Source: SAR202 cluster bacterium Io17-Chloro-G6 (GTDB lineage: Bacteria > Chloroflexota > Dehalococcoidia > UBA3495). From it: a stretch of 28,503 bases of DNA. Of this stretch, positions 6,220-22,826 are shown piece by piece. The notes beneath the pieces are model-generated. The model was not told the origin of the DNA. It did no database searches and saw only the letters and a program-made list of their open reading frames with translations. Where the stretch lies: the NCBI GenBank assembly GCA_002816585.1, contig MUCT01000048.1, positions 1 to 28,503 of the forward strand. Reading direction: 5' to 3'. How positions within the stretch are numbered: position 1 is the stretch's first letter; each line of letters starts with the position of its first letter. A program made the translations under genes and the position numbers.

Positions 6220-8814
6220 ATGATACCCCTCAAGCTCACCGTCCGTAACTTTCTGTGCTACCGGGAGAACGTTGCTCCCCTTGATTTCACCGGGCTGCAC
6301 ATCGCCTGCCTCTGCGGAGCCAACGGCCATGGGAAGTCGGCCCTGCTGGACAGCATCACGTGGGCTTTGTGGGGCAAGGGCAGGGGAAAGACCCAGGACG
6401 AGATGATCTCCTACGGCGCTGACGAGTGCCGGGTCGAACTGGACTTCTCCTCCCGCGGCCAGGACTACCGCATCATCCGCAGCCACGCCCGGGGCGGCAA
6501 GCGGCGGCGGGGTGGCGCATCAGACCTGCAACTTATGGTCCTGGAAGGCGGGGATGAGGGTGCGCCTAAGCCCGTCACCGGCAATATGATCCGCGAGACC
6601 CAGGCCCGTATCGACCAGACCATCGGTATGGACTACGACACCTTCATCAACTCGGCCTTCTTGGTTCAGGGCCGGGCCGACGAGTTCACCAACAAGACCC
6701 CCGCCGAGCGCAAAGCTGTCCTTAGCAAAGTTCTGGGCCTGGAAACCTACGACCGGCTCCAGGTGCGCGCCCGGGAACGAAATGGCTGGGCCGAGAACTC
6801 CGCCAAGATCGCTGCAGGGAACGTGGACCGTATGGGCCGGGAATTGGAGCAATTGCTCGCCCCGTCGGCGGAACTGGCAGAAGTGGAACAGAGCCTTGTT
6901 GCCTTGAACAAGCAACTGGCAGAGCAGCAAGCCAGGACCACCGTGCTCAGAGACCAAGTGGGCGAACTGCGGCGGCAACAGGCCGGTGAAGAGGAAACCG
7001 CGCAGAGGCTGTCGGACCTGGCCAGGGAGCTGGAGCAGTTCGAGTCTGTTCAAAAGTCAGCCCAGCAGCAGGTGACGGCCTTCGAGAAACTGATGGAACA
7101 GGCCCCGGCCATCCGCCAAGGAGCAGCCCAACTGGCAACCGCCCGCAGCGCCTTTGCCCGGCTCGAAGAGGCCGGCCGTAGGTTCGACGAATTGGAGCGC
7201 AGCCGCCTCGCCGTCTCGTCGGCCATCGATAGAGAGCGCGTCCTAGTGGAGGCCCAGGTCACCCAACTGAACAACGAGATCGATTCTCGCCTCGGCCCGA
7301 AAGCCCAGGGCTTGGAGCAGCTTGAGGCCGGGCAACTGCAGTTGCAGAACGAGGGGCCGGGGCTTGAAGAGCAAGAAAGGGCCCTGGCGGCGGAACGTGA
7401 GCGCCTCAACGGGATGGCAGTCCGGGCGGGGCAACTGCGAAGCTCGTTGGAACGACTCAAAATCGAAGGTCAAGAACTGAACGCTAAGAAGGCATTGCTC
7501 AACGGCGTCAACGGTCAGGAAGGGATGTGCCCCCTGTGTCAGACCCCGTTGAACGAGGACGGTTGTCAGCGCCTGGCGGAGACATTCGAAGCTGACATAG
7601 AAGCCAAGCGGGAGGAGTACCGGAAGACCTCGTCTCAAGAGAAGGTTCTCCTAGCCGAATCCACCGAGTTGGAGGGCCGCCTGCCCCAGCAGGAACAATC
7701 GTTGTCCAAGGCCCAGACCAAGCGCCAGGTGAAGCTCCAACAACTGGACCAGCAGATAGCGGAAGCCCGGCAGGCCAGGGCGGACCTGGCTGAAGCCGCC
7801 CCCAAGCTTGAAGCCATGCGGGCGTCCTTGGTGGAAAGTTCCTTCGCCACAGAGGAGTCGGTCCAATTGAGGAAACTGGAAACCCAGATACAGGAGTTGG
7901 GCTACGACCCGGCGGAGCGTCAGCGGATCTACCAAGAGACCGTTGATCTGGAAGATTTCGCTCAAACGGAAAGCCGGCTGAAGCAGGCGGAAGCTGACCT
8001 GCCGGGAGTTCGGGAGACGGTGGAGCAGAACGCATCCATGGCCCAGCGCCGCCTGGAGGAACTGAAGCAGCTGCAGTCCAAGATGGCCGAGGCCAAGCAG
8101 GCTCTGAAGGGCCTAGCCGCCCTAGAGACCGAGTTCACCCAGGCTGAGCAGCAGGAACGGGAATTGGGCGTTAAGATTCAGCAAGGCATCGAGCGCCAGG
8201 GATACCTTCGGAACCAGGTGGAGCGCAAGGAATCGCTGGGACAGGAGATCAAGGCGGAATCGGCGCGGCTTGTGGCCCTGCAAGACGAGCAGTCCATCTA
8301 CCAGGAGTTGTCCACCGCCTTCGGCCGGCAGGGAGTCCAAGCGATGCTAATCGAGACGGTGGTGCCACGGCTGGAGGATGAGACCAACGCGCTCTTGGGC
8401 CGCATGACCGATAACCGCATGAACGTGAAACTGGAGACCCAGCGGGAGAGGACCTCAGGGCAAGGCGACCCCCGTGAAACCCTGGAGATATTGGTCAGCG
8501 ACGAGTTGGGCCCACGCAGTTATGAGATGTACAGCGGCGGCGAGGCCTTTCGGGTGAACCTGGCTTTGCGCATCGCCCTGTCCAAGGTGCTGGCCCAGAG
8601 GATGGGCGCGCCCTTGCCGACCCTGTTCATCGACGAAGGATTTGGCACCCAAGATGCCGTGGGCCGGGAGCGGATACTGGACGTTATCAGTGCGATCGGC
8701 AACGATTTCGAGAAGGTTTTGGTCATAACCCATCTGGACGACCTGAAGGAAGCCTTCCCGGTTCGCATCGAGGTCCAGAAAGAGGAGTTTGGCTCCACCT
8801 TCTGGCTTAGCTGA
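6220..8814 (+). CDS. sbcC: SbcC-type SMC-like exonuclease ATPase subunit
   Basis: An 864-residue SbcC/Rad50-family ATPase, the DNA-end-bridging subunit of the nuclease that opens hairpins and processes breaks. The Walker A region GANGHGKSALLDS is at residues 33-45. Two long Gln/Glu/Arg/Leu-rich coiled-coil arms flank the zinc hook CPLC at 437-440. The C-terminal lobe has the ABC signature YSGGEAFRVNLALR at 771 and Walker B LFIDEGFGTQD around 805. It is somewhat shorter than E. coli SbcC because of shorter coiled coils. Normally it works with the SbcD nuclease encoded next to it; here sbcD is not adjacent, so the partner must be elsewhere or absent. GNAT and PPOX-type genes follow within 33 bases and with a 14-base overlap, probably in one transcript. 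The start codon lacks a clear ribosome binding site. Confidence 0.93.
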   Translation: MIPLKLTVRNFLCYRENVAPLDFTGLHIACLCGANGHGKSALLDSITWALWGKGRGKTQDEMISYGADECRVELDFSSRGQDYRIIRSHARGGKRRRGGASDLQLMVLEGGDEGAPKPVTGNMIRETQARIDQTIGMDYDTFINSAFLVQGRADEFTNKTPAERKAVLSKVLGLETYDRLQVRARERNGWAENSAKIAAGNVDRMGRELEQLLAPSAELAEVEQSLVALNKQLAEQQARTTVLRDQVGELRRQQAGEEETAQRLSDLARELEQFESVQKSAQQQVTAFEKLMEQAPAIRQGAAQLATARSAFARLEEAGRRFDELERSRLAVSSAIDRERVLVEAQVTQLNNEIDSRLGPKAQGLEQLEAGQLQLQNEGPGLEEQERALAAERERLNGMAVRAGQLRSSLERLKIEGQELNAKKALLNGVNGQEGMCPLCQTPLNEDGCQRLAETFEADIEAKREEYRKTSSQEKVLLAESTELEGRLPQQEQSLSKAQTKRQVKLQQLDQQIAEARQARADLAEAAPKLEAMRASLVESSFATEESVQLRKLETQIQELGYDPAERQRIYQETVDLEDFAQTESRLKQAEADLPGVRETVEQNASMAQRRLEELKQLQSKMAEAKQALKGLAALETEFTQAEQQERELGVKIQQGIERQGYLRNQVERKESLGQEIKAESARLVALQDEQSIYQELSTAFGRQGVQAMLIETVVPRLEDETNALLGRMTDNRMNVKLETQRERTSGQGDPRETLEILVSDELGPRSYEMYSGGEAFRVNLALRIALSKVLAQRMGAPLPTLFIDEGFGTQDAVGRERILDVISAIGNDFEKVLVITHLDDLKEAFPVRIEVQKEEFGSTFWLS

Positions 8815-9775: not shown

Positions 9776-11134
9776 CTAAAAGAGCGTCAAGTACCGCTCA
9801 ATCTCCCACCGGGTAACCTGCCGGTGGTACTCCCGCAATTCGGCTTCTTTCACGGCTAGGAATTCGTCGTAGATGGCCCCCAAAGATTCCTGCACCAGTT
9901 CGTCGCGCTTCAATGCCGCCAGCGACTCGTCCAAGGTTTGAGGCAATAATCCGATTCCCCGGCGGCGAATCTCGTTCAGACCCAAGCTGTACATATTCCC
10001 AAGGTTGGGCTCTCCGGGATCCAGTTTTCTTAGTATCCCATCCAGGCCGGCCATGACGTAGACGCTCAGAGCCAGATAAGGGTTGGCGGCGGAAGACATG
10101 CTGCGGTCTTCCAGGTGACTGGGTCCGGGTGTGCGGATCATCTGGGTCCTGTTGTTGTCACCATAGGAGATAAAGGCCGGGGTCCACACGTATTCGATGC
10201 TGGAATCGGTCACTCCGGGTTCCACCTGCAGCCGTTTGTAGCAATTTATCGTTGGCGACATGACCGAGCATAGAGCCGGTGCGTGGGCGAAGATTCCAGC
10301 GATGAATTGATAGGCCAACTCCGACAAGCCCAGCCCGCGAGGGTCTTCTTCGTCAATAAACAGGTTCTCTCCGTTGAGAGAGTCCGCCAGGTGGTAGTGT
10401 ATGTGGCCGCCGTTGCCAACCCGGTTGTTGAAGGGCTGGGCCATATGAGTGGCGACCGCCCCGAACTCCCGGGCGTATTGGCTGGTCATCATCTTGAAAA
10501 AAGTGTACCGGTCGGCCGTGGTCAAAGCGTCCGCATAGGCGAAGTTGATCTCATATTGACCGTTGCCGTCTTCGTGGTCGGATTGGTAGGGTTCCCAGCC
10601 CAAACGACCCATGGCGTCCATCATCTTGCGCAGATAGTCGATGGCGTTTGATGTTCCCTTGAAGTCGTAACAAGGATTACGAAGGTTATCCACGTCGTTG
10701 GGGTCCCAAATTGCGATGGAGCCATCGGATTTTTTGGTGACAAGGTGATGTTCGGGCTCGATGCCGACGTTGAACACGTAACCTTGCTCGCGCACCTGCG
10801 ACAAGACACGCTTCAGGTTTTGCCGCGGGCAGAACAGGTGTGGATGGCCGTCCACGAATAGGTCGCTGGCGAAGCGGGCGATGCCGTCAGTCCACGGGAC
10901 AAGGGTGTAAGAGTCAAGGTCGATCCGGGCCATCATGTCGTGGGAATGCGGACCCTGACCCAGCCCAGGCAGGGCCGCTCCGGCGAAGGCGGCTCCATCA
11001 TCTATCAGATCGTCTAAATGGTCGGCAGGCACCAACTTCACCTTGGCAGAGCCGTGGACGTCCACGAACTGGACAAGAAGGTATTCGACTGCGTCTTTCG
11101 CTACTCGCTCTCGAATCTCTTCTCGGGTTGCCAT
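9776..11134 (-). CDS. Type III (GlnT-like) glutamate-ammonia/amine ligase
   Basis: A 452-residue glutamine synthetase-fold ligase, which joins an amine to the gamma-carboxyl of glutamate using ATP. The N-terminal beta-grasp domain has VQFVDVHGSAKVKLVP; the catalytic domain has GIEPEHH at 124-130, HEDGNGQYEIN at 187-197, NGGHIHYHL at 241-249 and NRTQMIRTPG with HLEDRS, the ATP, metal and glutamate sites in family order. The HEDGNGQ and GIEPE variants, together with the length, match the GlnT/type III group rather than housekeeping GlnA, and no adenylylation Tyr region is seen. Members of this group include gamma-glutamylmethylamide synthetase (GmaS), so the amine substrate need not be ammonia. 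It is the last gene of an operon with a polyamine decarboxylase-like gene, which favours an alkyl- or polyamine substrate (inference). Confidence 0.85.
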   Translation of the reverse strand: MATREEIRERVAKDAVEYLLVQFVDVHGSAKVKLVPADHLDDLIDDGAAFAGAALPGLGQGPHSHDMMARIDLDSYTLVPWTDGIARFASDLFVDGHPHLFCPRQNLKRVLSQVREQGYVFNVGIEPEHHLVTKKSDGSIAIWDPNDVDNLRNPCYDFKGTSNAIDYLRKMMDAMGRLGWEPYQSDHEDGNGQYEINFAYADALTTADRYTFFKMMTSQYAREFGAVATHMAQPFNNRVGNGGHIHYHLADSLNGENLFIDEEDPRGLGLSELAYQFIAGIFAHAPALCSVMSPTINCYKRLQVEPGVTDSSIEYVWTPAFISYGDNNRTQMIRTPGPSHLEDRSMSSAANPYLALSVYVMAGLDGILRKLDPGEPNLGNMYSLGLNEIRRRGIGLLPQTLDESLAALKRDELVQESLGAIYDEFLAVKEAELREYHRQVTRWEIERYLTLF

Positions 11135-11178: not shown

Positions 11179-12528
11179 CTACGCCCCTGTAAGCGCTGAA
11201 GGCGTTCTGCTCTTTTCAACCGGGACAGACCGAAGCGGCCGGCGCACGGACGATGGGTCGATTCCAGCCCGCAAAGCGCTTAGCACCCCAGCCGCCTCCC
11301 AATAATTCTCCACGGTATGTAGCTGTCCCTTGGCCCAGGGTAGCGCGGACAGGTCGTTCTGCATCAGGTTTTTGTTTTCTTTGACGGCGATGACGGGAAT
11401 TCCCTGTTCCAACGCAGCAAATGTGGGCAATCCCAGGCAATGGTCGGGTATGACCAGGCAAGAAACATCCCGGGCGGTGAGCACACCGGGCTCCCGCATA
11501 GTTTCCCGGTCGGTGACGATCCTGGGACTTCTTTGAAGGCCTTTCAGGACGCACTGCAAGAAACTGACTGAGATAACTTCGGCGGCCATCCGAGGGTCGA
11601 CTACGCCGGTTTCGATGTCCAATACATCCTGGGATTCCAGCATGGGGGCGTGGGCCGATGGCAGGTCATAAAGGCTTGAAATTGTGTGGGTAAGCATGGA
11701 TTCAACCCCGCCCCATGGGTTGACCATATCGCCGCCGCTCCAGAAATAATCGCTGTAGTAATGCAAGGGTGTCGAGATCACGGACGCGATGGCCACCGCG
11801 TCGTAGTCCGCACGGTGTTTGTCCAACAGATGAAACAGGTGGTCGAGACCTTCCACGCTGCCTGCCGCCCGTTCCGAGCCTGTGAAAGCGGGGCTCATCA
11901 CCAACTGACTTTCCAACTCGATGATCCCCGGGCAATTCAGCCCATATGAAGCCCGGGCCGCATTGACCGCGTTGATCGTCAAGTCCGTGAATATCCGGTC
12001 ACGATGAGGATGCATCAGCACCAGCACCCGATTCGACCGCACCGGTTGTAACCCGATGGTCCCCATGATCAACCGGCAGAGGACGCTCCCTTCCACATAA
12101 AGGGCATTCGCCGGCATCTCGTTGATATCGGACGCATTAACCACGTTGGGATGGACGATCAGTGTGTCGCAAACGGAGGCCAGCAACTGGGCCACCGGCG
12201 TCGCGTCACCGGCGTGGCCACCGATGGCGGCGCCGATACCGGTGGGGATCAACATGGCGGCATTGAACTGCCCCGTGTTCTCAGACTGCCGCCTGCAAAA
12301 ATCCATTGCCAATCCAGGGGATATCCGGTGAGAATCAGCACCGGCCTGGTAGATCGTGGCCTCGCACTCGTAAACCTCGGTGTTCGATTCGGTGATTACC
12401 AGGCGCACCAACTCCTCGCCGCTAGGAAGCCTGTCTGCGGTCTCGCGGGCCAGCCAGTCGAGAACGCTGCATTGCCTGGGAGGAACCGGCACCCCGAACG
12501 CAATCTCAGAAACGCGCACTGGCTTCAA
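11179..12528 (-). CDS. DUF3326-family protein
   Basis: A 449-residue protein with the DUF3326 hallmarks LIPTGIGAAIGGHAGDATPV, the CDTLIVHPNVVNASDINEMP block and ANALYVEGSVLCRLIMGTIG, known also from cyanobacteria and plants. The C-terminal part contains LVIPDHCLGLPTFAALEQGI and PVIAVKENKN, resembling a nucleotide- or sugar-binding Rossmann-like loop. No biochemical role is established that I can name. It has no signal peptide or membrane span. The start codon is TTG at 12528, overlapping the previous gene by 23 bases, with a GTG at 12519 as an alternative; ggagg lies about 20 bases upstream. The overlap and the 44-base gap to the ligase gene place it in the middle of a three-gene operon, so it may act in the same amine pathway. 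Confidence 0.75.
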   Translation of the reverse strand: MKPVRVSEIAFGVPVPPRQCSVLDWLARETADRLPSGEELVRLVITESNTEVYECEATIYQAGADSHRISPGLAMDFCRRQSENTGQFNAAMLIPTGIGAAIGGHAGDATPVAQLLASVCDTLIVHPNVVNASDINEMPANALYVEGSVLCRLIMGTIGLQPVRSNRVLVLMHPHRDRIFTDLTINAVNAARASYGLNCPGIIELESQLVMSPAFTGSERAAGSVEGLDHLFHLLDKHRADYDAVAIASVISTPLHYYSDYFWSGGDMVNPWGGVESMLTHTISSLYDLPSAHAPMLESQDVLDIETGVVDPRMAAEVISVSFLQCVLKGLQRSPRIVTDRETMREPGVLTARDVSCLVIPDHCLGLPTFAALEQGIPVIAVKENKNLMQNDLSALPWAKGQLHTVENYWEAAGVLSALRAGIDPSSVRRPLRSVPVEKSRTPSALTGA

Positions 12529-13846
12529 ACCCCCATCGTTGAGATTGCTCCTCCAAAGTGAACCTCTTCACCAACGTGACATCGCCGCTGGCGTTCAGGG
12601 AGTAGATCGATGGCAGGGGAAGCCCGTTGAAAGTGTGGGCTTTAACCAGGTTGTAAGCGCCAACGCCGTACATCACCACCGTGGACCCGATTTCCAGGGG
12701 CTGAGCGAATGCATATTCCCCAAACACATCGCCCGCAAGGCAGGTAGAGCCGGCGATGATGTAGGGATGCCGGCCGCCTTCGACGTCCATCAGTATTCCC
12801 GGCCGCCACTCATACTCGAAGGATTCGGGCAGGTGGTTCACGGTCGTGTCTAGAATCGCGATCGATTTGCCGCTGTTCTCGAAGATGTCCAGCACAGTGG
12901 AAACAAGAAACCCGGCATCACGCACGAAGGCCGAGCCCGGCTCCATGAACACCTCCAACCCGTGCCGTGACTTTAGAGATCTCACAGCTTCATCGAACGC
13001 ATCTTGATTGGTGCTGTCTTTGTCGAACAGATACCCGCCGCCCAGGTTGATCCACTGGGAGTCCCCAAGAACGCGTTCGAGCTCCGCCTCCAGTTGCCGG
13101 ACCGTCAACAGGAGTTCCTGAGCGTCAGGAGAGTTGCAATTGTTGTGGATGAGCAATCCGCTCAGGCCGTGGGACGCCGGGGAGTTTGGGCCCAGTGCCT
13201 CCTTGATGTCGTGGGAAGACGCGCCCAGCTTTGAATAGGCCCGGCAGGGGTCGTAGCGGGGATCATCCAGAAAGGATACCTCCGGATTCACACGCAGGCC
13301 AATCTCCAGATCGCCCGTCAGGTCACCTTTGTGGCGCTGCCACTGGGAAATGGAGTTGAAGGAAAGGTAGTCGCAAACCTCTGAGATTTTTCCGACTTCA
13401 TCGGGCCGTAATCCCGGAGTCGTGATGTGAACAGTGCCCTCTGCCGGAAGCATATTCTGAAGCACGTTTCGGGCCGTGACCGCTTCGTACAAAGAACTGA
13501 CGGAAAATCCCTGAACATGGGGAGCGATCAACTCCAGAACCCAAGGCAGGGTTAGCGCTTTTACTGAGTAGAGGAGTTTGCAGCCGGCCCTGTCGGCGAT
13601 CTGCTTGAGGTGTTCACACCGGGACGTGATAAACGCATCCTCATATACGAACGCCGGCGTGGCTATTGATGCCGTGGCTTCGGCGAACACTTGGGCCAAT
13701 GCCGAAAATTCGTCTAAGGTTGCCTGATCGGGCTTGCTGTTCAAATCTGCTGTAGCTCCGAGATTATCGAATGGCACCTGATGTGGCAGAACCCAAATCC
13801 CGCCAAGCCGGTCCTCGTGCTGGCGTGGCGTGGCTTTTCCGTGCAT
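12506..13846 (-). CDS. nspC: Carboxynorspermidine decarboxylase-like PLP enzyme
   Basis: A 446-residue fold-type III PLP decarboxylase closest to NspC, which makes norspermidine or spermidine from the carboxylated precursor. The PLP lysine is in LLYSVKAL (Lys96). Then come ISEVCDYLSFNSISQWQR, HNNCNS at 234-239, the phosphate-binding WINLGGGYLFD at 266, MEPGSAFVRDAG at 301 and the catalytic CLAGDVF with Cys369 and Asp373; Vibrio NspC has the same CLAGD and HMNCEN elements. The N-terminus is about 60 residues longer than typical NspC, so the true start may be internal. The usual partner, carboxynorspermidine dehydrogenase, is not in the window. The reaction could therefore be on a related amino-carboxylate. 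Confidence 0.85.
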   Translation of the reverse strand: MHGKATPRQHEDRLGGIWVLPHQVPFDNLGATADLNSKPDQATLDEFSALAQVFAEATASIATPAFVYEDAFITSRCEHLKQIADRAGCKLLYSVKALTLPWVLELIAPHVQGFSVSSLYEAVTARNVLQNMLPAEGTVHITTPGLRPDEVGKISEVCDYLSFNSISQWQRHKGDLTGDLEIGLRVNPEVSFLDDPRYDPCRAYSKLGASSHDIKEALGPNSPASHGLSGLLIHNNCNSPDAQELLLTVRQLEAELERVLGDSQWINLGGGYLFDKDSTNQDAFDEAVRSLKSRHGLEVFMEPGSAFVRDAGFLVSTVLDIFENSGKSIAILDTTVNHLPESFEYEWRPGILMDVEGGRHPYIIAGSTCLAGDVFGEYAFAQPLEIGSTVVMYGVGAYNLVKAHTFNGLPLPSIYSLNASGDVTLVKRFTLEEQSQRWGFEASARF

Positions 13847-13910
13847 TGTGGGCGGGTCATCTCTTGTAGTTGATCTGCTGTGAGGCTAGCCTAAAACAAG
13901 AGTGTTTTGA

Positions 13911-13939
13911 TTGACCTGTCCCGGCGCAAACCCTACAAT
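13911..13939 (+). promoter_or_regulatory. Strong sigma70-type promoter of the DUF350 gene
   Basis: TTGACC (13911-13916) and TACAAT (13934-13939) are separated by exactly 17 bases. Transcription would start near 13946, leaving a leader of about 118 bases before the ATG at 14064. The hexamers are identical to those of the ffh promoter. It lies in the divergent spacer with nspC; no equally good promoter was found for the nspC side. Confidence 0.7.
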
Positions 13940-14063
13940 AGCAAAATCCTTCCGGCAGGTCGATATTCTTAGTCAATGCGCTAAGTAATGATCGGACTTA
14001 GACCGGATTTGACGATGATTTGGACTCAAAGAGCAAGACGCACAGTTTTGGAATGGGGAAGCA

Positions 14064-14951
14064 ATGGATGATGCGATTGTCGATACGCTAAAGATTATTC
14101 CCCGTGGTCTGGTATTTGTTGGGTTAGGGCTGATCATATTGGTGATCGCCAAGCTCGCCAGGGACATCATCACCCCATACAAGATTGATGAAGAAGTCAC
14201 CGGCAAGAAGAACCTGGCCGTCGCGGTGCGGCTTAGCGGTTACTTCATGGGTGTCATCCTGGTATTTCTTGGCACGTTGTACCAGCCGTTGGCTTTGGCG
14301 GAGGTGGACGGGCTGGGCTTTGACCAGGAGTATGCCGAGGACGTCCTCCGGGTGTTCCTATACTCCTTGGCCGGCATCGCCGCTCTGAACCTGGTTAGAA
14401 TATTCATGAACCGGCTCATTCTCTACAAATTTGACATTGAGAATGAGGTGGTCCAAGGGCAGAATATCGGGAGCGGGGCCGCCGAATTTGGCATGTATGT
14501 TGCCACGGGGTTATTGATTGCGGGGGCCGTGGCCGGAGAGGGGGGCGGGCCCGACACAGCGGCCGCGTTCTTTGGGATGGGGTTGGCCTTGATGGTGCTC
14601 TTTGCCCTGTTTTACCAACTGACCACGTCATTTGATATCCATTCTGAAATCGAAGGCAATAATACCGCTGTGGGTATCGCGTTCGGCGGGAACCTGGTCG
14701 CTATCGGGCTTGTGACCTTTAAGGCAGTGTTCGGAGATTTCAGCGGGTGGAACGAGGGGATAGCGGCCTTCGTTATCTTTGGAGTGGTCGGCTTCGTGCT
14801 GCTTTATGCCATGCGGGTGCTTCTCGACAAGTTGCTGCTGCCTACCGTCTCGGCGTCAAACGCCATTGCGGCTGACCGGAACGTTGGGGTTGCTTTCATC
14901 GAAAGTGCGGTGGTTATCAGCTCAGCGATGATTCTGTTCTTGGCCATCTGA
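14064..14951 (+). CDS. Integral membrane protein with two DUF350 domains
   Basis: A 295-residue protein built of two tandem DUF350 units, about eight hydrophobic segments (around residues 13-32, 50-70, 93-113, 133-153, 165-187, 200-220, 228-250 and 270-295). Each half carries the DUF350-like pattern of a conserved short loop, seen as KIDEEVTGKKNLAVAVRLSG in the first half and DIHSEIEGNNTAVGIAFGG in the second. In E. coli the single-domain YjfL belongs to this family, and family members often sit near polyamine-synthesis or PspA-type genes (established knowledge). Function is unproven; an envelope-stress or transport role is assumed. ggggaa lies just before the start. It faces the acidic-protein operon tail to tail and is divergent from the nspC operon. 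Confidence 0.85.
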   Translation: MDDAIVDTLKIIPRGLVFVGLGLIILVIAKLARDIITPYKIDEEVTGKKNLAVAVRLSGYFMGVILVFLGTLYQPLALAEVDGLGFDQEYAEDVLRVFLYSLAGIAALNLVRIFMNRLILYKFDIENEVVQGQNIGSGAAEFGMYVATGLLIAGAVAGEGGGPDTAAAFFGMGLALMVLFALFYQLTTSFDIHSEIEGNNTAVGIAFGGNLVAIGLVTFKAVFGDFSGWNEGIAAFVIFGVVGFVLLYAMRVLLDKLLLPTVSASNAIAADRNVGVAFIESAVVISSAMILFLAI

Positions 14952-14952
14952 G

Positions 14953-14968
14953 GAAGCAGGACTGCTTC
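14953..14968. terminator. Hairpin at the tail-to-tail junction, possible bidirectional terminator
   Basis: GAAGCA-GGAC-TGCTTC is a perfect six-pair hairpin with a four-base loop right after the DUF350 stop and touching the stop of the convergent gene. On the plus strand a pyrimidine-rich tail (actcttctctt) follows. The T-run is weak, so termination is plausible rather than certain. Confidence 0.45.
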
Positions 14969-16082
14969 ACTCTTCTCTTATCCGCCTGAGCAAATCTTCC
15001 TGGGATTCCACCGCTCTGGTTGCATCGGACTGTTCCTCGGCAAAGGCGTACCCGGCATCGAGGATCGATTCGAGCATCGTTTCATCTTCCCTTTCAGCAT
15101 CGACTATGGGGCTCAAGACCTCGCCAAAGAATTGCTCGGAGTGGATGGACTCACGCCAGGTCGCCAAGCCCGCATCGAAAGTCGAGTCGTAAAGCCGAAG
15201 TAGAAACACCACCCGCACCGGGTCCTGTTCGTCGTATTCGTAGAGTTGGACTCTGAGATCCCTCCCAAGGCCGGTTTCAAATTCAAGGGCTCCGCTGTCG
15301 GCATCGTAGAACACATCTTTGAACACGTCATATTGATCAATATATGTGTCCGTCTCTGCGATAGTTTTTCCGATGGCCTGCCTGCCTTGCTCGGTGATAG
15401 CAAACGTCCCGTCCAAGTCCGATGGTGCGATCAGCTTAGCCGACTGAAGCTTCTTGGCGATGGGCAGCAGATTTTGGTCAGTCTCATCGATCGGTTTCAC
15501 TGAGAGTTTGTACTGATGCTTGTCCAGGAAATACATCAGCATATTGGCCTGCATGAATTCAATCGTCGTCTTTTTTGCTTTGAAGTAACCAGCGTTGGCC
15601 AGGTAGTCCAAGACGTCGAGTTCCTGGTCGATTACCAAATCCAACAGCGGTGATTCGTCTATCCCGTGCACCGGTGATTGAATCAGGCTGAGATGGTCGT
15701 CCAGCCGGTCGGTTAGTTTTATCTCCGGACCCTGGTTGGCGAAGAAATGGAGGGCACATTTGCCGCTGCGCCACTCCGAGAATATCTCCAACAACGCGTT
15801 GTACATGTCGGGAAGATCCGGGTTCTCTCTAACATCGATCAGGGAGCGGAACTTTGATTGCTGCTTCCTGTCGCCGGAGAAAATATCGTCGAGAAAATCG
15901 CCGAGCCGGGAATCCACGTACTCCGGCCCAAGCTCCACCCAAAAGGCATCTTCCAGATTCATTTCCCCCAGGGAAACCTGGAAGGTGAACGGCCGGTGCT
16001 TAACGTAGTACGCCTTGGACGGGCTGTATTCGATGGAGAAATCCGCCAACTCTTTGTAGTATTTGGATGGGCTGCTAGCCAT
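14967..16082 (-). CDS. Acidic protein of unknown family (371 aa), last gene of the SecA-like operon
   Basis: I do not recognise this protein. It is strongly acidic, has no signal peptide or membrane span, and should be cytoplasmic. It seems to have several parts: an N-terminal region with SPSKAYYVKHRPFTFQVSLG, a central helical region, a segment around residues 215-245 (KLQSAKLIAPSDLDGTFAIT) that resembles the recognition helix and wing of a winged-helix domain, and a C-terminal region with YEYDEQDPVRVVFLLRLYDS. AGGTGAT lies 7 bases upstream of the ATG at 16082. It follows the lipoprotein gene after 59 bases on the same strand, so it is probably the last gene of the operon. A regulator or a cytoplasmic adaptor of the SecA-like ATPase are guesses only. 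Confidence 0.65.
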   Translation of the reverse strand: MASSPSKYYKELADFSIEYSPSKAYYVKHRPFTFQVSLGEMNLEDAFWVELGPEYVDSRLGDFLDDIFSGDRKQQSKFRSLIDVRENPDLPDMYNALLEIFSEWRSGKCALHFFANQGPEIKLTDRLDDHLSLIQSPVHGIDESPLLDLVIDQELDVLDYLANAGYFKAKKTTIEFMQANMLMYFLDKHQYKLSVKPIDETDQNLLPIAKKLQSAKLIAPSDLDGTFAITEQGRQAIGKTIAETDTYIDQYDVFKDVFYDADSGALEFETGLGRDLRVQLYEYDEQDPVRVVFLLRLYDSTFDAGLATWRESIHSEQFFGEVLSPIVDAEREDETMLESILDAGYAFAEEQSDATRAVESQEDLLRRIREE

Positions 16083-16141
16083 AAATCATCACCTGCGGAC
16101 CATAGTCACCATGGGAGTTCAACATTCGCCGACAAGCCCGG

Positions 16142-16927
16142 CTACCACCGGCTGCCCCTGATGACGACTTGAGCGCCACCGCCACCGCTGAGGCCACCGC
16201 GGCCTCCAGACCCGCTAAACCTGCCGAATCCGGACCTAACGCCGGTATTGCTGGTTCTGAATCCTCCGCTGGCTTTCTGCGTTCCGATATAACTTGTCCG
16301 GGCCGGGCTTAACCCGGTGCTGGCTCTCTGCTTGCTGTAGTATCTGGAGTTCTTCTGGACCTGGCTGCCGCTGCCGCTGCCCGAATAGGCAGTTGAATTC
16401 CGGTAATTAGTTCGTTGAGTCTGCATCTCCGGCACCCGGGAACGGGGGGTGTAGTATCCGTAACCGCCTCGTCCAAGGGACGAAAAGATCAGATAGGTGA
16501 AGAGGAAATTCCCGCCGCCAAAGGAGCTACGGTAATGCTGGTTGGAGCCGTTTCCCCGCAGGTCGTTCGAGCCGCCTTCGTTTGTAATAGTGAACAATAA
16601 GTCGTCTTGATCTGGGTCTAGGTCGTTATTTTTATTCAGATCTTCGTAACCTTCGATCACGCGTTTCCCATCCTCATCCTTGGCCCGGACAAGTACAATC
16701 CCGTCCCCCTCGTAGATTTCGTTTAAACGCTTTTCGAATTGCTCGACGGTCTGGGATTTCTTGAACGACTCCTCGACTTCCTCCATATTGATCCGGCCGA
16801 TGGCCCCCTCGGTGGCGGCCCATTCGTCGGCGCTCACCCCGGAGGAACAACCGGCTATCACTGGACCAGCGACCATCATGCTGGAGCCCAGGAGTAGCGA
16901 CATACTCATTCTTTTCCGTTTGCCCAT
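16142..16927 (-). CDS. Lipoprotein with acidic loop and Gly/Ser/Arg-rich tail
   Basis: A 261-residue lipoprotein: a KRKR n-region, a hydrophobic stretch and the lipobox VIAG-C with Cys27. The mature part has an acidic segment, DLNKNNDLDPDQDD (around residue 97), that looks like a calcium-binding EF-hand or dockerin loop. It then has a short hydrophobic segment GGGNFLFTYLIFSSLGRGGY and a long tail rich in Gly, Ser, Tyr and Arg. The hydrophobic-patch-plus-Gly/Ser tail resembles the layout of E. coli YgiB/YjfM (DUF1190), which is encoded beside a DUF350 gene; direct homology is not shown. The ATG at 16927 was chosen because aagggg is 7 bases away; an ATG two codons earlier is too close to it. 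It lies 35 bases after the SecA-like gene. Confidence 0.75.
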   Translation of the reverse strand: MGKRKRMSMSLLLGSSMMVAGPVIAGCSSGVSADEWAATEGAIGRINMEEVEESFKKSQTVEQFEKRLNEIYEGDGIVLVRAKDEDGKRVIEGYEDLNKNNDLDPDQDDLLFTITNEGGSNDLRGNGSNQHYRSSFGGGNFLFTYLIFSSLGRGGYGYYTPRSRVPEMQTQRTNYRNSTAYSGSGSGSQVQKNSRYYSKQRASTGLSPARTSYIGTQKASGGFRTSNTGVRSGFGRFSGSGGRGGLSGGGGAQVVIRGSRW

Positions 16928-16962
16928 GGTCATACCCCTTAATTGGAAAAGTCCGGTTTGGT

Positions 16963-19900
16963 TTACGCCCCGAGGATTCTAACGACGTCCTCGAAAAGCT
17001 CAATTTGTGGAGGCTGGGATTCTTTGACTACGTCATTGGGGAAAGCAGCCAATTTTGGCAAAAACGAGTCGATGATGCGGTCTTGCAGGCTTTTATAGGA
17101 TTCAAAACTGCTCACGGTATAGGCAGCCAAATCGTCTCTCCCATTGTGACCCATGAGTTGCGTTCCAAGGATCAAGCTCTGTACCTGGGACATATGTTCC
17201 CGCCATAGCTCATCGCCGGTTTGCAAGTACAAGAGTTTCCCCAATTTTTCGAACTCTTCGCTGGTAAATCTGGCCCTGGACCGTTCCAGTCTTGCCCCGA
17301 TCAAGATTGCTATTTCTTCTTCCAATAGGTTGAGATCCAGACCTTGTAGACCGGAAGCAACAACTTTATAGTCGAGCTCCAATTCCTCGCGCAGCCCGGC
17401 GAACTGACGTGTGTAGTCATCTACCAGCAATGCTGGGAAATACTTCTGGGCTAGTTGGCCTGCTTTTTCTGCCACCAAGCTGCTGAGGAACAGCTTGAAG
17501 CTGTCCATACGGAGGATTTCTTTCCTGGTCCGGTAGTAAGCAAAGGATTGTGCTTCCAAGACACGCGTGTATTCTTCGGTCCGCGCCCGGCGGGATTCGG
17601 CTTCTCTTTCAGCGTCCCTCTGCAGTTTCTCTAGATGGCGTGTCAGAGGCTCCCCTTCACGGAAAGCCCGGCCTGCCAAGTCAGTCGTTGTGCCACCCAG
17701 TCCTTCCCCGGATGGACGGAACCTCGAGAGCCGGTCTTCCGAAGACGAAAAGAATCGGGAGGCGCCAAAATCTCCTTGCCTGCCGCTCCGGCCCATTAGC
17801 TGATGATCCACTCTGGCGTTATCGCTGGTTCCCGCCCCGATCACATACAGCCCAAGCCCAAATTCCAGAGAGACCACAGGTCCTGCTGGGGCCTGAGTCG
17901 ATTCCTTGTTAGCCGAAACAGTAATGTCGATACTGCCGGCACATTTAGCCGTGGCAATCGAACAATCCAGGTTCCCGGTGTTTATGGCGGCGAGCAACAT
18001 TTGAGCAGCATCGTTGGTCTGGCACTTGAGTGTCACGGCGCCAACGCCCTCAGCCAGCAATTTGCCGGCCATGGTAGCGTAGGCATCAGCGATGTGGCGG
18101 TCTAATCCGGGTTCAAGGATAATGTCCGTGCCTCTCCCGGCCATGTCAGTGGCCACTGTCACCGCCCCAAAACGGCCAGCCCCTTCGATTATCCGGTCCT
18201 CTTCCAGGTCGTTCGCCGCGCTCAGCAAGTTGTGCTGGATGCCATCGCGGCGCAACAGTTGGGAAATTGCTTCACTTTCGTCGATGGAGTGGGTGCCGAT
18301 CAATACCGGCCGGCCCACCCTACGGCAGAAGCGGACCTCTTCGACGATGGCCTGAAGCTTGTCTTGCTTGTTGAAGTACATCCTGGGTTTAAGATCGGTG
18401 CGTTTGACGGGGTGGCTGGGAGGAATAGCTATAACCTCCAGGCCGTAGGCCCGCTCAAACTCGTTATTGGCAGCCATGGCGGTCCCGGTCATGCCGGACA
18501 CAACGCCATATTGGGACAAGAAGCCCCGCACCGATATCCGGCCTAGCACCTCGTGATCGGGCTGCACCGGCACGGCTTCCTTTACTTCTAGGGCGGCTTG
18601 AAGGCCGTAGTGGTACCGGGTATCGGGACGCCCTCTGCCGGTGTGCTGGTCGATCAGCACAACCTGGTCATCCCTCACCAGGTAATCCAGGTCCTTTTTC
18701 AACAAGACATAGCCCCACAACATCCGCACCACCTGGTGCATCCGGTCTTGCTTCCGGGCAAGTTGCCGGTTGAGCTTATCCATTTCCTTTCGCCTGAATG
18801 CCAAAGGAAGGTCAGCATCCTCCTGGAAGGCGCTCAACTTTTCCTGTACCGCAAAGTCTTCGAACAATGGTCCGAGTAGGGATTCGACGAATTCCAGGCC
18901 CTTTTCGGTCAGGCACAGGGACTTGCCATCGCCGTCGATCCAATAGTAGAGATCACTGGTTAGGCTGTCGTATTCGTCGTCAACCCGGTATTCGGCAAGG
19001 ACCCGGAGCGCGCGCCTAAAGCATCTGGGACTGCCGGCGAATTCCTGCTGCAACGCTCTGCTATCGGGATCGGCGAGATATAGCTTGGTCAAAACCAAAA
19101 AGTAGGCCTCTGACCGAGATGGCGCGCGCTCCAACTCCTGCTCCAGGGCCGAGACAGCGGCCCGCTGCAGATCAACCATCCGCTCAATCGCTATACGAAG
19201 CTTGGCAGATATCTTTGGGGTGGTGCCGGAGCCGCCGGAGATGATGAGCGGAATATTGGCCTCATCGATCAGGGCATGATCAGCTTCGTCGACGATGGCC
19301 ACATCCAAATTTCCTTGGACGATCTCTGAGGTAGACAGCTTGAGGTTGTCTCGCATGAAGTCGAAACCGAATTCCCGGAGAGCGCCGTAGACCACATCTT
19401 TCCCATAAGCAAAGCGCCGCTCAGATTCATCCATGACATCGAGCACCACGCTCACGCTCACGCCCAGGGATTCATAGACCGGAGCCAACCATTCGGCGTC
19501 TCGGCCCGCCAGGTAATCGTTTGCGGTTATTACGTGGACGGACTTTCCGTAAACCGCGTACAGGACGGAGGGGAAAACCGCGGCGATCGTTTTGCCCTCA
19601 CCAGAGTTCATTTCGACGATTTTGCCCTGGTACAGCAGGATACCGCCCAGAATCTGCTGGTCGGTCACCTGAAATGCCAGTTGGCCTTCCTCGTCACATT
19701 CCCGGAGCGCCCGATAAAAGCAAGCGGGAAGGGGAATGTTCGCCGTGTATTCGGATTGACTTCTTTGGCTGACGAATAGAATCGTCTCTACCAAGATTCT
19801 TTCCCGGGGCGCCAATTCGTGGCGGCCCAAAACGGGAGCAACGGCTTGGTCGAAACTCTCCCAGCATTTGCTCCCGCTGTCCGCCCACTCACGGGCGGTC

Positions 19901-20256
19901 CGCTGAAAGTCGAGGGTCTGAAAAATACGGTCCGCCGACCCGTGATACTTGTGAAAACGTTGGTTTTCCATAGCAGGGGCCGCCGGGTAGAAGAACCGCC
20001 ATGCTCCCTGGCGTCTGCTGATGGATTCGTTGACGACGGCGAATACCGTCGGCAGAAGAACTTCACCCCGCCGATCTTGGACTTCAAGGGCCAACGAAGC
20101 GATGGTGTCCCGCAACTCGAGATCGGAGTGAGAATCGAACTTCAGCTTCCGAATCTCCTGGAGTAAGTCTCTCCCTAAATCCAGGTCTGCTCCCTTGCGC
20201 GCGCCCAAGGCGCCGGGAATGCCTTCAAACCGATTCAAGCCTGGAATTTTAATCAT
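16963..20256 (-). CDS. Divergent SecA-like preprotein translocase ATPase
   Basis: A 1097-residue SecA-family ATPase that is clearly not the housekeeping form. It has ILGGILLYQGKIVEMNSGEG with the Walker A GEGKT at 219-223, HVITANDYLAGRDAEW, EFGFDFMRDN, a Walker B DEADH at 323-327 (standard SecA has DEVDS) with LIDEANIPLIISG, GMTGTA at 588-593, DMAGRGTD at 704-711 and QLMGRSGRQGD at 819-829. The N-terminus is about 115 residues longer than in SecA. Roughly 90 residues with several Cys separate GRGTD from GLYVIG, compared with about 40 normally. The helical scaffold ending LWREHMSQV...SFESYKSLQDRI is present, but the zinc-binding tail is absent. It starts 3 bases after the channel gene. A dedicated SecA2-like export ATPase for an operon product is the best guess. 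Confidence 0.88.
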   Translation of the reverse strand: MIKIPGLNRFEGIPGALGARKGADLDLGRDLLQEIRKLKFDSHSDLELRDTIASLALEVQDRRGEVLLPTVFAVVNESISRRQGAWRFFYPAAPAMENQRFHKYHGSADRIFQTLDFQRTAREWADSGSKCWESFDQAVAPVLGRHELAPRERILVETILFVSQRSQSEYTANIPLPACFYRALRECDEEGQLAFQVTDQQILGGILLYQGKIVEMNSGEGKTIAAVFPSVLYAVYGKSVHVITANDYLAGRDAEWLAPVYESLGVSVSVVLDVMDESERRFAYGKDVVYGALREFGFDFMRDNLKLSTSEIVQGNLDVAIVDEADHALIDEANIPLIISGGSGTTPKISAKLRIAIERMVDLQRAAVSALEQELERAPSRSEAYFLVLTKLYLADPDSRALQQEFAGSPRCFRRALRVLAEYRVDDEYDSLTSDLYYWIDGDGKSLCLTEKGLEFVESLLGPLFEDFAVQEKLSAFQEDADLPLAFRRKEMDKLNRQLARKQDRMHQVVRMLWGYVLLKKDLDYLVRDDQVVLIDQHTGRGRPDTRYHYGLQAALEVKEAVPVQPDHEVLGRISVRGFLSQYGVVSGMTGTAMAANNEFERAYGLEVIAIPPSHPVKRTDLKPRMYFNKQDKLQAIVEEVRFCRRVGRPVLIGTHSIDESEAISQLLRRDGIQHNLLSAANDLEEDRIIEGAGRFGAVTVATDMAGRGTDIILEPGLDRHIADAYATMAGKLLAEGVGAVTLKCQTNDAAQMLLAAINTGNLDCSIATAKCAGSIDITVSANKESTQAPAGPVVSLEFGLGLYVIGAGTSDNARVDHQLMGRSGRQGDFGASRFFSSSEDRLSRFRPSGEGLGGTTTDLAGRAFREGEPLTRHLEKLQRDAEREAESRRARTEEYTRVLEAQSFAYYRTRKEILRMDSFKLFLSSLVAEKAGQLAQKYFPALLVDDYTRQFAGLREELELDYKVVASGLQGLDLNLLEEEIAILIGARLERSRARFTSEEFEKLGKLLYLQTGDELWREHMSQVQSLILGTQLMGHNGRDDLAAYTVSSFESYKSLQDRIIDSFLPKLAAFPNDVVKESQPPQIELFEDVVRILGA

Positions 20257-20259
20257 ATT

Positions 20260-21327
20260 TCATGAAACCAACAATTCCTGAACTATTGCCCACTCCAGCC
20301 GGGAGGAGCTGATGTAAACCAATACATCGTCTGCCACCGGAAATAGATCGACGAACCGGAGATGCACCGTCCCGCTGCGGACGACGCCCACCAAGTTAAT
20401 GTCGCGGTCCAGCATGTGCTTGGCGACGTGGGGGTAGGGAACCTGGTTATCGGGCACCGACTCCACTCGGATACTGAGGAGGGTGCCCTCCATCTGATTA
20501 CTGGTAATAACCTGGGTAAGCTGGCTTACGCCGGGGTCCTGAGATTCCTGCACCAGAAGGTTGTTGGCCAGTTGGAGGGGGAACACCAGGGACACATTTT
20601 CCATACCCTCAAACAGCACGGCATGCTTGGGATCGATACACTCCGCCGTGGCCACTATTCCCGGGTTCACGCGGTGCAGCACGGAAACGGCCGACGCGAC
20701 GATACTGTCGCTGCTAGGGTCGTCGTAACCCGTGCTCAGTACTATCGCTCTTTGGGCCTCCCCCATCGCCGCCCGCTCGTAAGTTTCCGTTTCCAGGGGT
20801 GAGCCACGGACGAAGTAGACATTGGGATAAGAGAAGGGCAGAGTCTCCACCCGGTCACTGACTACGGCGATGTCGTCGTCCCGGTGCTTGGGGTCCGACG
20901 TAAACTCGTCGATTATGTGGCGAACGCGGGACTCGTTGGGGTAGTTGATTATCAAGATATGTCCGTTCACATACAATCTCCCCATGCCGGTCCGCTCTCT
21001 GTACTGCAATTCGATCAGCCAGCTGATTAACATGCCTGCCGATGCGGTGAAAGCGGTGAGGCCCAGCAGCGTGATAAAAAATATCGTGCCAATCCTGGAC
21101 CCAACGGTGTCGGCTGTAAGGTCGCCGTAACCAATGGTCGTGATGGATATCATACTGTACCAAAAGCTATCGCCTACGGATAACTCGGGGGTGTCGCGCC
21201 TCTCGAAGAAGAAGAACGTCATGGCATTTCCCGTGATACTGATAAGGAGCGCAGCCAAGACGAAACTGACCCCTACTCCTCTCCTGCGGCGGACCCGGAT
21301 CAGGTGTCCTCTTAGCTGATTTAGCAT
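20260..21327 (-). CDS. K+ channel with cytoplasmic RCK/TrkA-like domain
   Basis: A 355-residue two-helix potassium channel. Two membrane helices (about residues 19-41 and 78-105) flank the pore helix and the selectivity filter TIGYGD at 64-69, an exact K+ filter. The cytoplasmic part is Rossmann-like (GHILIINYPNESRVRHIIDE, then VVSDRVETLPFSYPNVYFVR and RAIVLSTGYDDPSSDS). The usual nucleotide-binding G-x-G-x-x-G is replaced by IINYPNES, so NAD may not be bound; this resembles CASTOR/MthK-like relatives. A C-terminal TrkA-C-like subdomain follows. Length and order fit an MthK-style gated channel. Its SD (GGGAG) lies in the end of the upstream gene, with 12 bases between the genes, so translation is coupled. 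Ion flow or voltage sensing at the membrane is presumed. Confidence 0.88.
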   Translation of the reverse strand: MLNQLRGHLIRVRRRRGVGVSFVLAALLISITGNAMTFFFFERRDTPELSVGDSFWYSMISITTIGYGDLTADTVGSRIGTIFFITLLGLTAFTASAGMLISWLIELQYRERTGMGRLYVNGHILIINYPNESRVRHIIDEFTSDPKHRDDDIAVVSDRVETLPFSYPNVYFVRGSPLETETYERAAMGEAQRAIVLSTGYDDPSSDSIVASAVSVLHRVNPGIVATAECIDPKHAVLFEGMENVSLVFPLQLANNLLVQESQDPGVSQLTQVITSNQMEGTLLSIRVESVPDNQVPYPHVAKHMLDRDINLVGVVRSGTVHLRFVDLFPVADDVLVYISSSRLEWAIVQELLVS

Positions 21328-21339
21328 ACCGTCATACGC

Positions 21340-22737
21340 CTATCTCCCGAGCCCAACTATGACCATACCGGCTTCATGTTCCAGACCCTCGCTTGCATTG
21401 TAGCGGGACAGCAGATGTTGCCTGGACGCCATGACCCGCCCACTGGCTAAAGGGTGCTGCCCGGCAAATTCCCGACCGATCTCGGAATCCAGACTCCACT
21501 CTTCGTCGACCACGCACGGCAGCCCGACACTCTCGCAAGCTCCCTTATATTGCCGCTCCAGGTCCAAGAACTCCCGCCGGCTCTTGTAGAGAAGCGGCGT
21601 AACATAGAAACCCTCCGTAATAATGAGACCTAGTTCGTTCTCTATTACCTGGATTAAGTCCGCCTCTGGAATCCAACCCTCCAAGGCGAAGAGTAGATTC
21701 TCCGGAATGTCTTGAGACACCCGGTGATAATAGAATGACTCCTCATGCAACGACATGCGTACGGAAACCGGAACCTTTTCGCGGCAGTTCAGCATTCCCT
21801 CGGCTTCAGGGCCCTCCAAGAATAGGAAGGGAATGTTCCCGTTGGTCGCGTCTACGATGATGTCCACGCCATCAAGGTGATACAACAATGCCATGTGCTG
21901 CCAGTAGCGCATGAACCGCTTGGAAAAGCCGAACTCGAAGGTGGTGAGAAGCTCCCGCAGCCGCTCTTCGGGGACCGGTTTTCGGGCGTTTGGCCCGGCC
22001 AGGAGATACTCCGACTCATACCCAAGGTTGTCGGTGAGAAACTTCAGGGCTTGGACTTTCTCCGAGCAGATTCCACCTCCTCCTTCAATGATGTTCTGTA
22101 CTGTTTCGTCCCCGGTTTTAAAGATCAGTTTCTGGCCGGTAAATCGGGAGTAGCTTTCAAAGTCGGCTTCCCAGACCCGTTTGGCCAGGGTCCGTAAGAC
22201 AACCCGTCTGGCCTCCGCTGAATCTAGCTCAAGTATGGAATCGGCTTCTGATGGCCTGCGGTCCTGCTCCAGCGCCGATCTAATGAATCCGAGATAGGAT
22301 GCCTCGTTCTTCGCCCATTTTCTTGCATTGAAGCCGATCCAATTGCGGCCGTAACCTACGTTCCAACGGTCGACCTCCAGGTCGATAACCGCGACGTCAA
22401 TTTCACCGGCCTGCCCAATTACCACCTCGGTCTCCGCTCCCGCCTCTAAGACCCGGCCTGCTTGTTTCACGATCGTCCCAGGGAACATCTCGTGAAGCCG
22501 TCCATTATTGTCGCTGACGTAAACCAAGTCCTGAATGGCCGATAGGCTCTGGGCGGACTCCGGTGTGATCCGGTTTTCCTCAAGCAACCGGTCAATCCGA
22601 GGGTTCTTAAGGCACTGTTCGAGCAATTGCTCCCAGGGCATGGCTGCGTCACCTGGGTCCAGGCGCAAAGCGCACTTTCTGGTTGTAACCCCATCGGTTA
22701 ACTGAAGGACATAGCTGACGTTTTCTTTGGTTGGCAT
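21340..22737 (-). CDS. Transglutaminase-like cysteine enzyme (papain-like fold)
   Basis: A 465-residue protein with a papain/transglutaminase-type triad. The nucleophile is in IEGGGGICSEKVQALKFL (Cys223, counted from the ATG at 22737), the His is in MRYWQHMALLY (His280) and the Asp in VDIIVDATNG (Asp295). Such folds crosslink or cleave amide bonds or acylate amines. The N-terminal 150 residues form an extra region with LVYVSDNNGRLHEMFPGTIV and VAVIDLEVDRW, perhaps a greasy beta domain; no signal peptide is seen. The start could also be TTG at 22752; the ATG lacks a clear SD. It is the first gene of the operon with channel, SecA-like, lipoprotein and acidic-protein genes, and the promoter at 22799-22826 lies in front. 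The arylamine acetyltransferase fold is a related alternative. Confidence 0.7.
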   Translation of the reverse strand: MPTKENVSYVLQLTDGVTTRKCALRLDPGDAAMPWEQLLEQCLKNPRIDRLLEENRITPESAQSLSAIQDLVYVSDNNGRLHEMFPGTIVKQAGRVLEAGAETEVVIGQAGEIDVAVIDLEVDRWNVGYGRNWIGFNARKWAKNEASYLGFIRSALEQDRRPSEADSILELDSAEARRVVLRTLAKRVWEADFESYSRFTGQKLIFKTGDETVQNIIEGGGGICSEKVQALKFLTDNLGYESEYLLAGPNARKPVPEERLRELLTTFEFGFSKRFMRYWQHMALLYHLDGVDIIVDATNGNIPFLFLEGPEAEGMLNCREKVPVSVRMSLHEESFYYHRVSQDIPENLLFALEGWIPEADLIQVIENELGLIITEGFYVTPLLYKSRREFLDLERQYKGACESVGLPCVVDEEWSLDSEIGREFAGQHPLASGRVMASRQHLLSRYNASEGLEHEAGMVIVGLGR

Positions 22738-22798
22738 AAGAGATTGAAGCAACGGTTTCAGATCTGTCTGTCAATGGCCGGGCTGGCAATGCGGGCAT

Positions 22799-22826
22799 AA
22801 TATAGTCAGGGTGAGAGGGTTGTCCA
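22799..22826 (-). promoter_or_regulatory. Possible promoter of the channel/SecA-like operon
   Basis: On the minus strand TGGACA (complement of 22821-22826) and TATATT (complement of 22799-22804) are separated by 16 bases, in the 103-base gap between the flavodoxin stop and the transglutaminase-like gene. The -10 continues as TATATTAT, so a 2-base shift in register is possible. Transcription would begin about 55 bases before the ATG at 22737. Confidence 0.45.

Follow-up and report, generated by a model that had tools for sequence, protein, structure and literature searches.

We examined a DNA stretch of 28,503 nucleotides from SAR202 cluster bacterium Io17-Chloro-G6 (assembly GCA_002816585.1, contig MUCT01000048.1; this whole stretch is called the window below), which carries a gene cluster that includes a divergent paralog of SecA. 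Five genes of this cluster lie on the minus strand in the following order: a cysteine enzyme predicted to share its fold with transglutaminases (TGases) and arylamine N-acyltransferases (NATs) (positions 21340-22752; 470 amino acids), a K+ channel with an RCK-type cytosolic domain (20260-21327; 355 amino acids), the SecA paralog (16963-20256; 1097 amino acids), a lipoprotein with its lipobox cysteine at residue 29 and a cationic tail rich in Ser, Gly, Arg, and Gln (16142-16933; 263 amino acids), and an acidic protein without a hydrophobic segment (14967-16082; 371 amino acids). A tandem DUF350 (YjfL-like) membrane protein of 295 amino acids is encoded tail to tail with them on the plus strand (14064-14951). 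This gene content points to a modification and export route reserved for a single envelope protein, with the lipoprotein as the proposed substrate.

All six open reading frames (ORFs) were found where a preliminary description of this DNA had placed them, on the same strands and in the same order. From the TGase-like gene to the gene for the acidic protein, the intergenic gaps are 12, 3, 29, and 59 bases, with 15 more bases to the DUF350 gene. The gap of 35 bases originally given between the SecA-like and lipoprotein genes also agrees when the lipoprotein is taken to start at its second ATG, which is where the starts in relatives fit. A Pfam scan of nine window ORFs recognized the channel (Ion_trans_2, 4.8e-13; Slo-like_RCK, 5.6e-8), the SecA paralog (four SecA domains), and two stretches of the DUF350 protein (PF03994, 2.5e-49), and it assigned no family to the TGase-like and acidic proteins. 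Promoter and terminator scans of the locus gave matches at about the level of shuffled sequence (7 versus 5.2 and 10 versus 9.2, respectively). A role in anti-phage defense was rejected because none of six locus proteins matched PADLOC.

Conservation of the gene order in Chloroflexota

A relative represented by a Chloroflexi metagenome-assembled genome (locus L001) has the same gene order as the window, with 63 to 82% identity per protein. Among 197 genomes of the order to which this relative belongs, 36 encode the SecA-like protein (E <= 1e-100), and searches for the TGase-like protein and the lipoprotein found 41 and 39 genomes, respectively. The 36 genomes with the SecA-like protein include 34 with the TGase-like protein and 33 with the lipoprotein, and for all five missing partners (two TGase-like proteins and three lipoproteins) the contig stops within 265 bases of the SecA-like gene on that side. 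Six additional genomes (G307, G342, G363, G400, G408, and G415) have TGase and lipoprotein matches while their SecA-like proteins fall below the threshold, and a profile search located a divergent SecA-like gene adjoining the lipoprotein gene in each of them (748 to 1040 bits).

Gene neighborhoods were compared at 45 SecA-like loci from 44 genomes or records (the locus of G358 is split), and SecA copies seen only as protein-search matches, without gene context, are outside these counts. A lipoprotein or TGase gene stands beside the SecA-like gene in all 45 loci, such that the SecA-like protein is not found mostly outside this context. Of the 40 loci with room for it, 39 have the lipoprotein gene 3' of the SecA-like gene, on the same strand and at most 600 bases away, and the sole exception (L067, genome G452) has 3.25 kb between the two genes (about 11650-14900). 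Upstream, the TGase gene is present in 38 of 45 loci, and of the seven without it, four have less than 3.9 kb of sequence in this direction. In 33 of 40 loci with room, the gene for the acidic protein lies downstream at a distance of no more than 3.5 kb, and it is farther off in L067. The DUF350 gene is convergent downstream in 32 of 36 loci with room. Counts for the TGase gene and for the channel gene described below (18 of 36) were read off the locus rows, as the automatic tally (29 of 39 and 17 of 36) is low because ORFs overlap SecA, and the figure of 17 omits L044.

The search of Chloroflexota genomes with the SecA-like protein as the query, as proposed in the preliminary description, revealed that the gene order extends far beyond close relatives and recurs where the SecA-like protein is as low as 33% identical. 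In a class-wide search of 294 genomes, the TGase-like protein was found in only three (G001, G336, and G534). One of these (G534) belongs to another order, and its locus (L119) encodes the TGase-like protein, two ligases, a GNAT protein, the SecA-like protein, the lipoprotein, and the acidic protein, in the same order. A phylum-wide search of 301 genomes recovered the TGase-like protein from G001 only. The system thus has a long history within one class and is seldom met outside a single order. The organism names displayed for SecA and TGase homologs all belong to Chloroflexota groups, although most rows are nameless, two listings hold the best 120 matches only (for the TGase-like protein, the best 120 of 834), and the genome searches were confined to Chloroflexota. 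Seven other genomes in the phylum search match the SecA query at E <= 1e-60, with 28 to 31% identity over part of the protein. These matches were taken as canonical SecA proteins, and six of them were used as such in the tree described below.

These distributions bear on the prospect that unrelated operons merely happen to adjoin in this genome. The parts are not all linked in every genome, as such an accident would predict, but their order is kept among deeply diverged relatives and recurs in a second order of the class, and a DUF3326 gene accompanies the system even where the two are unlinked (G322 and G336). An accident is already contradicted by these observations, and we give it almost no weight.

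Predicted functions of the enzyme, the SecA paralog, and the lipoprotein

The TGase-like protein carries a Cys229-His286-Asp301 triad that is invariant in 29 of 29 family members. Its predicted fold is closest to those of NATs, with TGases second, and residues 13-131 form an extra N-terminal domain that is perhaps ubiquitin-like (beta-grasp). The enzyme thus resembles NATs and TGases in both fold and triad, but it differs from them in this additional domain and in having no Pfam match over the cut-off. From the relevant superfamily, only PF00797 matched, in 4 of 25 members (best E value of 0.004), and a sequence search for solved relatives gave one match (E value of 0.5) and otherwise none. 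Predicted structure and the conserved triad support the assignment of a Cys-His-Asp acyl-transfer enzyme, which probably forms amide bonds. The preliminary view of a TGase-like modifying enzyme is thus upheld as to the triad and general fold and is revised as to the nearest fold, which is that of NATs. It is improbable that the protein is instead a protease or amidase acting by trimming or deamidation on the lipoprotein or the acidic protein, with SecA still serving for export, given that the best NAT and TGase rows outrank proteases in the fold comparison and that linked genes could provide an amine or acyl group.

We also considered an N-terminal domain common to the TGase-like and acidic proteins. 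Their fold matches are alike, and profile comparison gave probabilities of 8.6 and 10.4% for the N-terminal pieces and 0.8% for the whole proteins, which leaves such a relationship unproved. One TGase-like homolog (P0191; 753 amino acids) also carries PF02645, which we take to be DegV. Furthermore, a gene family labeled DegV from sequence is located just upstream of the TGase gene in L048, L056, L057, L059, and L064. Family alignments A1, A2, and A3 hold 25 of 29, 23 of 29, and 26 of 30 members, respectively, with the others outside length limits.

The SecA paralog matches the SecA DEAD, PP_bind, P-loop, and SW domains of Pfam. However, it scores below the NCBIfam cut-offs for canonical SecA (NF009538, 543.7 of 814; TIGR00963, 533.1 of 800) and for SecA2 (TIGR04221, 435.7 of 725; TIGR04397, 427 of 1085; TIGR03714, 412.9 of 930; NF012136, 370.6 of 1100). 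All 20 genomes examined encode a canonical SecA plus one paralog, and G307 has two canonical-type matches side by side. A single SecY was found in 19 of these genomes and none in G001, and no genome has two. In a tree of 66 sequences, the 38 paralogs form one group (support of 1.0, stem of 0.86) apart from 28 canonical proteins. This tree was built without L064, whose frame is split, without L072, L073, and the fragments L131-L133, and SecA2 proteins of other phyla were not included.

Residues equivalent to K108, D209, E210, R509, R574, and R577 of Escherichia coli SecA, which we take to be Walker A/B and arginine-finger residues, are kept in 38 of 38 paralogs. The QxDP motif of the two-helix finger (E. 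coli Q796, D798, and P799) is present in 28 of 28 canonical proteins but is not kept in the 38 paralogs, where the commonest residues at positions 796, 798, and 799 are His (21 of 38), Ser (10 of 38), and Ala (28 of 38). Four insertions, of 107, 61, 22, and 48 residues, set the window protein apart from E. coli SecA, and its shortened C terminus ends at approximately E. coli residue 860 of 901. On the basis of the invariant ATPase residues, the lost QxDP motif, and the insertions, the paralog is most likely an active ATPase of the SecA2-only type whose contact to cargo or channel is altered.

These same changes could mark a SecA paralog that has given up translocation and works on a membrane complex composed of the DUF350 protein, the channel, and PspA, as a motor for its remodeling or insertion. 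The missing QxDP motif, the insertions, and the shortened C terminus are all consistent with such a motor, whereas the PP_bind and wing/scaffold domains are still recognized and the lipoprotein gene adjoins that for SecA in nearly every locus with room. We consider this explanation to have only a small chance of being correct.

The lipobox cysteine (Cys29) is invariant in 30 of 30 lipoproteins. From window residue 160 onward (28 of 30 members), the tail is 20.8% Ser, 15.0% Gly, 14.8% Arg, 7.0% Gln, and 2.2% Asp plus Glu, compared to 6.2, 7.9, 7.9, 3.4, and 14.0%, respectively, in six other locus protein families. Gln191 is invariant and Gln202 is found in 27 of 30 members, and this cationic tail with conserved glutamines is plausible as a candidate amine-transfer site. 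The only Pfam match of the lipoprotein is below the cut-off (E value of 0.015). Its proposed likeness to DUF1190 is not supported: no DUF1190 match exceeded the Pfam cut-off in 20 genomes, the lone match at E <= 10 (1.24) is elsewhere in its genome, an hhalign comparison with YgiB/YjfM gave a probability of 0.6%, and weak matches occur in 3 of 26 members (best E value of 0.023).

The acidic protein has a weak structural likeness to a ubiquitin-like part plus a winged helix. Its identification as YjfK (DUF2491) or YjfI (DUF2170) was rejected, as hhalign comparisons with one sequence of each gave probabilities of 0.3% and 0.1%, respectively.

Accessory metabolic and membrane-stress genes

Beyond the DUF350 gene, the minus strand of the window encodes an NspC-like (carboxynorspermidine decarboxylase-like) decarboxylase dependent on pyridoxal 5'-phosphate (PLP) (12506-13846; 446 amino acids) and a DUF3326 protein (11179-12528; 449 amino acids; PF11805, 2e-92). 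The decarboxylase resembles NspC in that TIGR01047 is its best NCBIfam model (278 bits, 7e-83) and carboxynorspermidine decarboxylases are its best solved relatives, but it differs in falling below the curated cut-off (278.1 of 409.05 bits) and in having DUF3326 as its partner (carboxynorspermidine dehydrogenase was not searched for). Lys96, presumably the PLP lysine, is present in 23 of 23 members. Both genes occur in 17 of the 24 loci that have room on either side, where the NspC-like gene was sought near SecA only, and the DUF3326 gene adjoins the NspC-like gene in all 29 loci that show DUF3326. Within the order, 6 of 11 system-bearing genomes encode DUF3326, two of them at an unlinked position, versus 0 of 20 genomes without the system. 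The locus also links DUF3326 to NspC-type polyamine chemistry. The six genes of the preliminary description do belong together, but the border was drawn too narrowly, as the NspC-like and DUF3326 genes belong to the system as well.

A more peripheral gene (9776-11134, minus strand) is similar to type III glutamine synthetases (TIGR03105, 520 bits versus a cut-off of 469.6). Enzymes of this type can make gamma-glutamyl amines. The gene adjoins that for DUF3326 in the window, L043, and L045 and is linked in the window's own clade.

Additional families were found by clustering ORFs in 35 regions followed by profile searches. Relatives encode two ligase-like proteins, of which one matches AMP-binding (2.8e-10) and the other, without a Pfam match, was labeled a ligase from sequence, and also a GNAT-like protein whose match is under the cut-off (E value of 0.02). 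In three genomes, the TGase gene is parted from the SecA-lipoprotein block (G312, L073/L130; G307, L123/L124; G400, L125/L126), which suggests that the system has separable halves. The parted TGase gene of G400 is accompanied by ligase, NspC-like, and DUF3326 genes.

Several partners are related to membrane stress. DUF4178 (PF13785, best match of 5.3e-13) is encoded in 27 of 34 loci with room but not at the window locus. All 17 K+ channel family members compared keep the filter residues TIGYG. The channel gene lies upstream of SecA in 18 of 36 loci that have room for it. One clade encodes PspA-PspAA (PspA_IM30, 1.3e-27; PspAA, 1.3e-33; one example each) and lacks a linked channel. The channel is thus a part of the system, as originally proposed, without being obligatory. 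PspA was not found at the window locus and is encoded in 10 of the 24 loci that have room on either side. Among these 24 loci, 12 have the channel, 10 have PspA, none has both, and two have neither (Fisher test, 6.7e-5), although this exclusion is weak because the tree shows few independent switches.

The most constant parts of the system are the TGase/NAT-fold enzyme, the SecA paralog, and the lipoprotein, mostly joined by the acidic protein and a convergent DUF350 gene and usually by DUF4178. Its accessory parts are the K+ channel or PspA-PspAA, together with the NspC-like and DUF3326 pair and/or adenylate-forming ligases and the GNAT protein.

A possible modification and export route

Our preferred explanation, which we hold tentatively and at somewhat less than even confidence, is that these genes constitute one conserved Chloroflexota envelope-maintenance system with a yjfIJKLMC-like organization, to which a modification-and-export branch has been added. 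The comparisons above establish how far the system extends and that it is conserved, and they support the original proposal of one envelope-directed system with a divergent SecA. With the reserve just stated, we envision a mechanism comprising cytosolic modification, export by a dedicated SecA, and action at the membrane. An amine (polyamine) or activated acyl group would come from the accessory enzymes, and the cysteine enzyme would then make an amide bond in the cytosol on the lipoprotein precursor, most likely in its Ser/Gly/Arg/Gln-rich tail. The SecA paralog, as a SecA2-type motor, would drive this precursor through the cell's single SecY, perhaps with the acidic protein as its adaptor or regulator. 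Once anchored, the lipoprotein may work at the membrane face, where the DUF350 protein and the channel or PspA may sense or stabilize the membrane state. Export or crosslinking of the lipoprotein and the sensing of membrane leak, as suggested in the preliminary description, may be among its functions. A narrower version appears doubtful to us. In it, the NAT/TGase-fold enzyme of an envelope-stress system would attach a polyamine or acyl group to the lipoprotein while this is still cytosolic, and the SecA paralog, with its altered finger, would export this conjugate alone through the ordinary SecY, as a new kind of export by a dedicated motor.

Several points weigh against this explanation. The predicted NAT-like fold would suit acylation of small molecules equally with protein modification. 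Loss of the QxDP motif could mean that the paralog does not push chains through SecY, and the lipoprotein signal looks ordinary, such that a SecA of its own should be unnecessary. In L073, L124, and L126, the TGase gene is located elsewhere in the genome, unlinked to SecA. Six loci (L054, L073, L120, L122, L124, and L126), four of which belong to the most divergent group, gave no match to the acidic protein near SecA although they have room for it. Lastly, 5 of the 11 system-bearing genomes (G304, G312, G332, G339, and G346) gave no DUF3326 match anywhere. Their loci (L060, L073, L050, L055, and L048) have both ligase-like genes, a GNAT-like gene in four of five, and no NspC-like gene. Therefore, the NspC-DUF3326 pair is accessory, and polyamine supply from it is not essential.

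An alternative is a small-molecule route, in which the NAT-fold enzyme acylates a polyamine from the NspC-like branch with an acyl group provided by ligases or coenzyme A esters. The acyl-polyamine would act on the membrane, and SecA and the lipoprotein would constitute a surface branch of their own that is controlled jointly with this route. We consider this possibility rather unlikely. The constant neighbors of the enzyme are SecA and the lipoprotein, whereas the metabolic genes come and go.

Two kinds of known gene systems come close to the locus. As described in PMC11237479, whose second and third operon groups are the nearest counterparts, PspA operons combine DUF350, a K+ channel, a DUF1190 lipoprotein, DUF2491, and a GspS-like ATP-grasp ligase, and other operons carry a spermine/spermidine-like synthase, an eight-transmembrane DUF350 protein, a lipoprotein, and DUF4178. 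The terms "SecA" and "transglutaminase" have 0 occurrences in the main text of that article (supplements were not searched). YgiC and YjfC are reported as peptide-spermidine ligases (mentioned in PMC12568646), and their RefSeq names agree. The window locus shares with such yjfIJKLMC-type operons DUF350, a K+ channel with a cytosolic sensor domain, a lipoprotein, and a polyamine-type enzyme, and further likeness exists in relatives only (PspA, PspAA, and DUF4178). In contrast to these operons, the locus adds the SecA paralog, the TGase/NAT-fold enzyme, and the acidic protein, and the nine window ORFs include no Pfam match to an ATP-grasp (GspS-like) ligase or DUF1190 (relatives were not searched for the ligase). 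The preliminary comparison with E. coli yjfIJKLMC therefore holds for the organization but not for a DUF1190 lipoprotein.

In accessory Sec/SecA2 systems, a second SecA likewise exists besides the housekeeping one and is encoded with an enzyme and a Ser-rich putative export protein. For example, the serine-rich repeat protein PsrP is encoded in the SecY2A2 locus (PMC5526788). However, no second SecY was found here, every SecA2 cut-off was missed, the putative cargo is a small lipoprotein, and the enzyme has a NAT/TGase fold. We found no publication that names both DUF350 and SecA, with most subscription journals beyond the literature search. Likewise, the literature examined on SecA paralogs in Chloroflexi yielded nothing on this system, and that joining PspA, SecA, and transglutaminase yielded no mention of DUF350.

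If correct, the narrower version, in which only the conjugate is exported, would join Sec export to the YgiC/YjfC theme of polyamine tagging by a different chemistry. Pederick et al. (2023) reportedly described YgiC and YjfC as peptide-spermidine ligases. Under the preferred explanation, the system would be of the SecA2-only type with its motor matched to a chemically modified cargo, and it would offer a test of the task of the SecA two-helix finger. To our knowledge, no physiological role has been settled for yjf/DUF350/DUF4178 genes, even in E. coli, and this locus ties genes of this type to a testable output in the form of a lipoprotein, a triad enzyme, and a motor.

Two other features of the window were recognized by eye. 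An SbcC/Rad50-like ATPase with a CPLC hook is encoded at 6220-8814, and no SbcD lookalike was seen among ORFs of at least 60 amino acids in the kilobase before this gene. Short ORFs at 5372-5784 resemble a pair that we take to be HicB-HicA.

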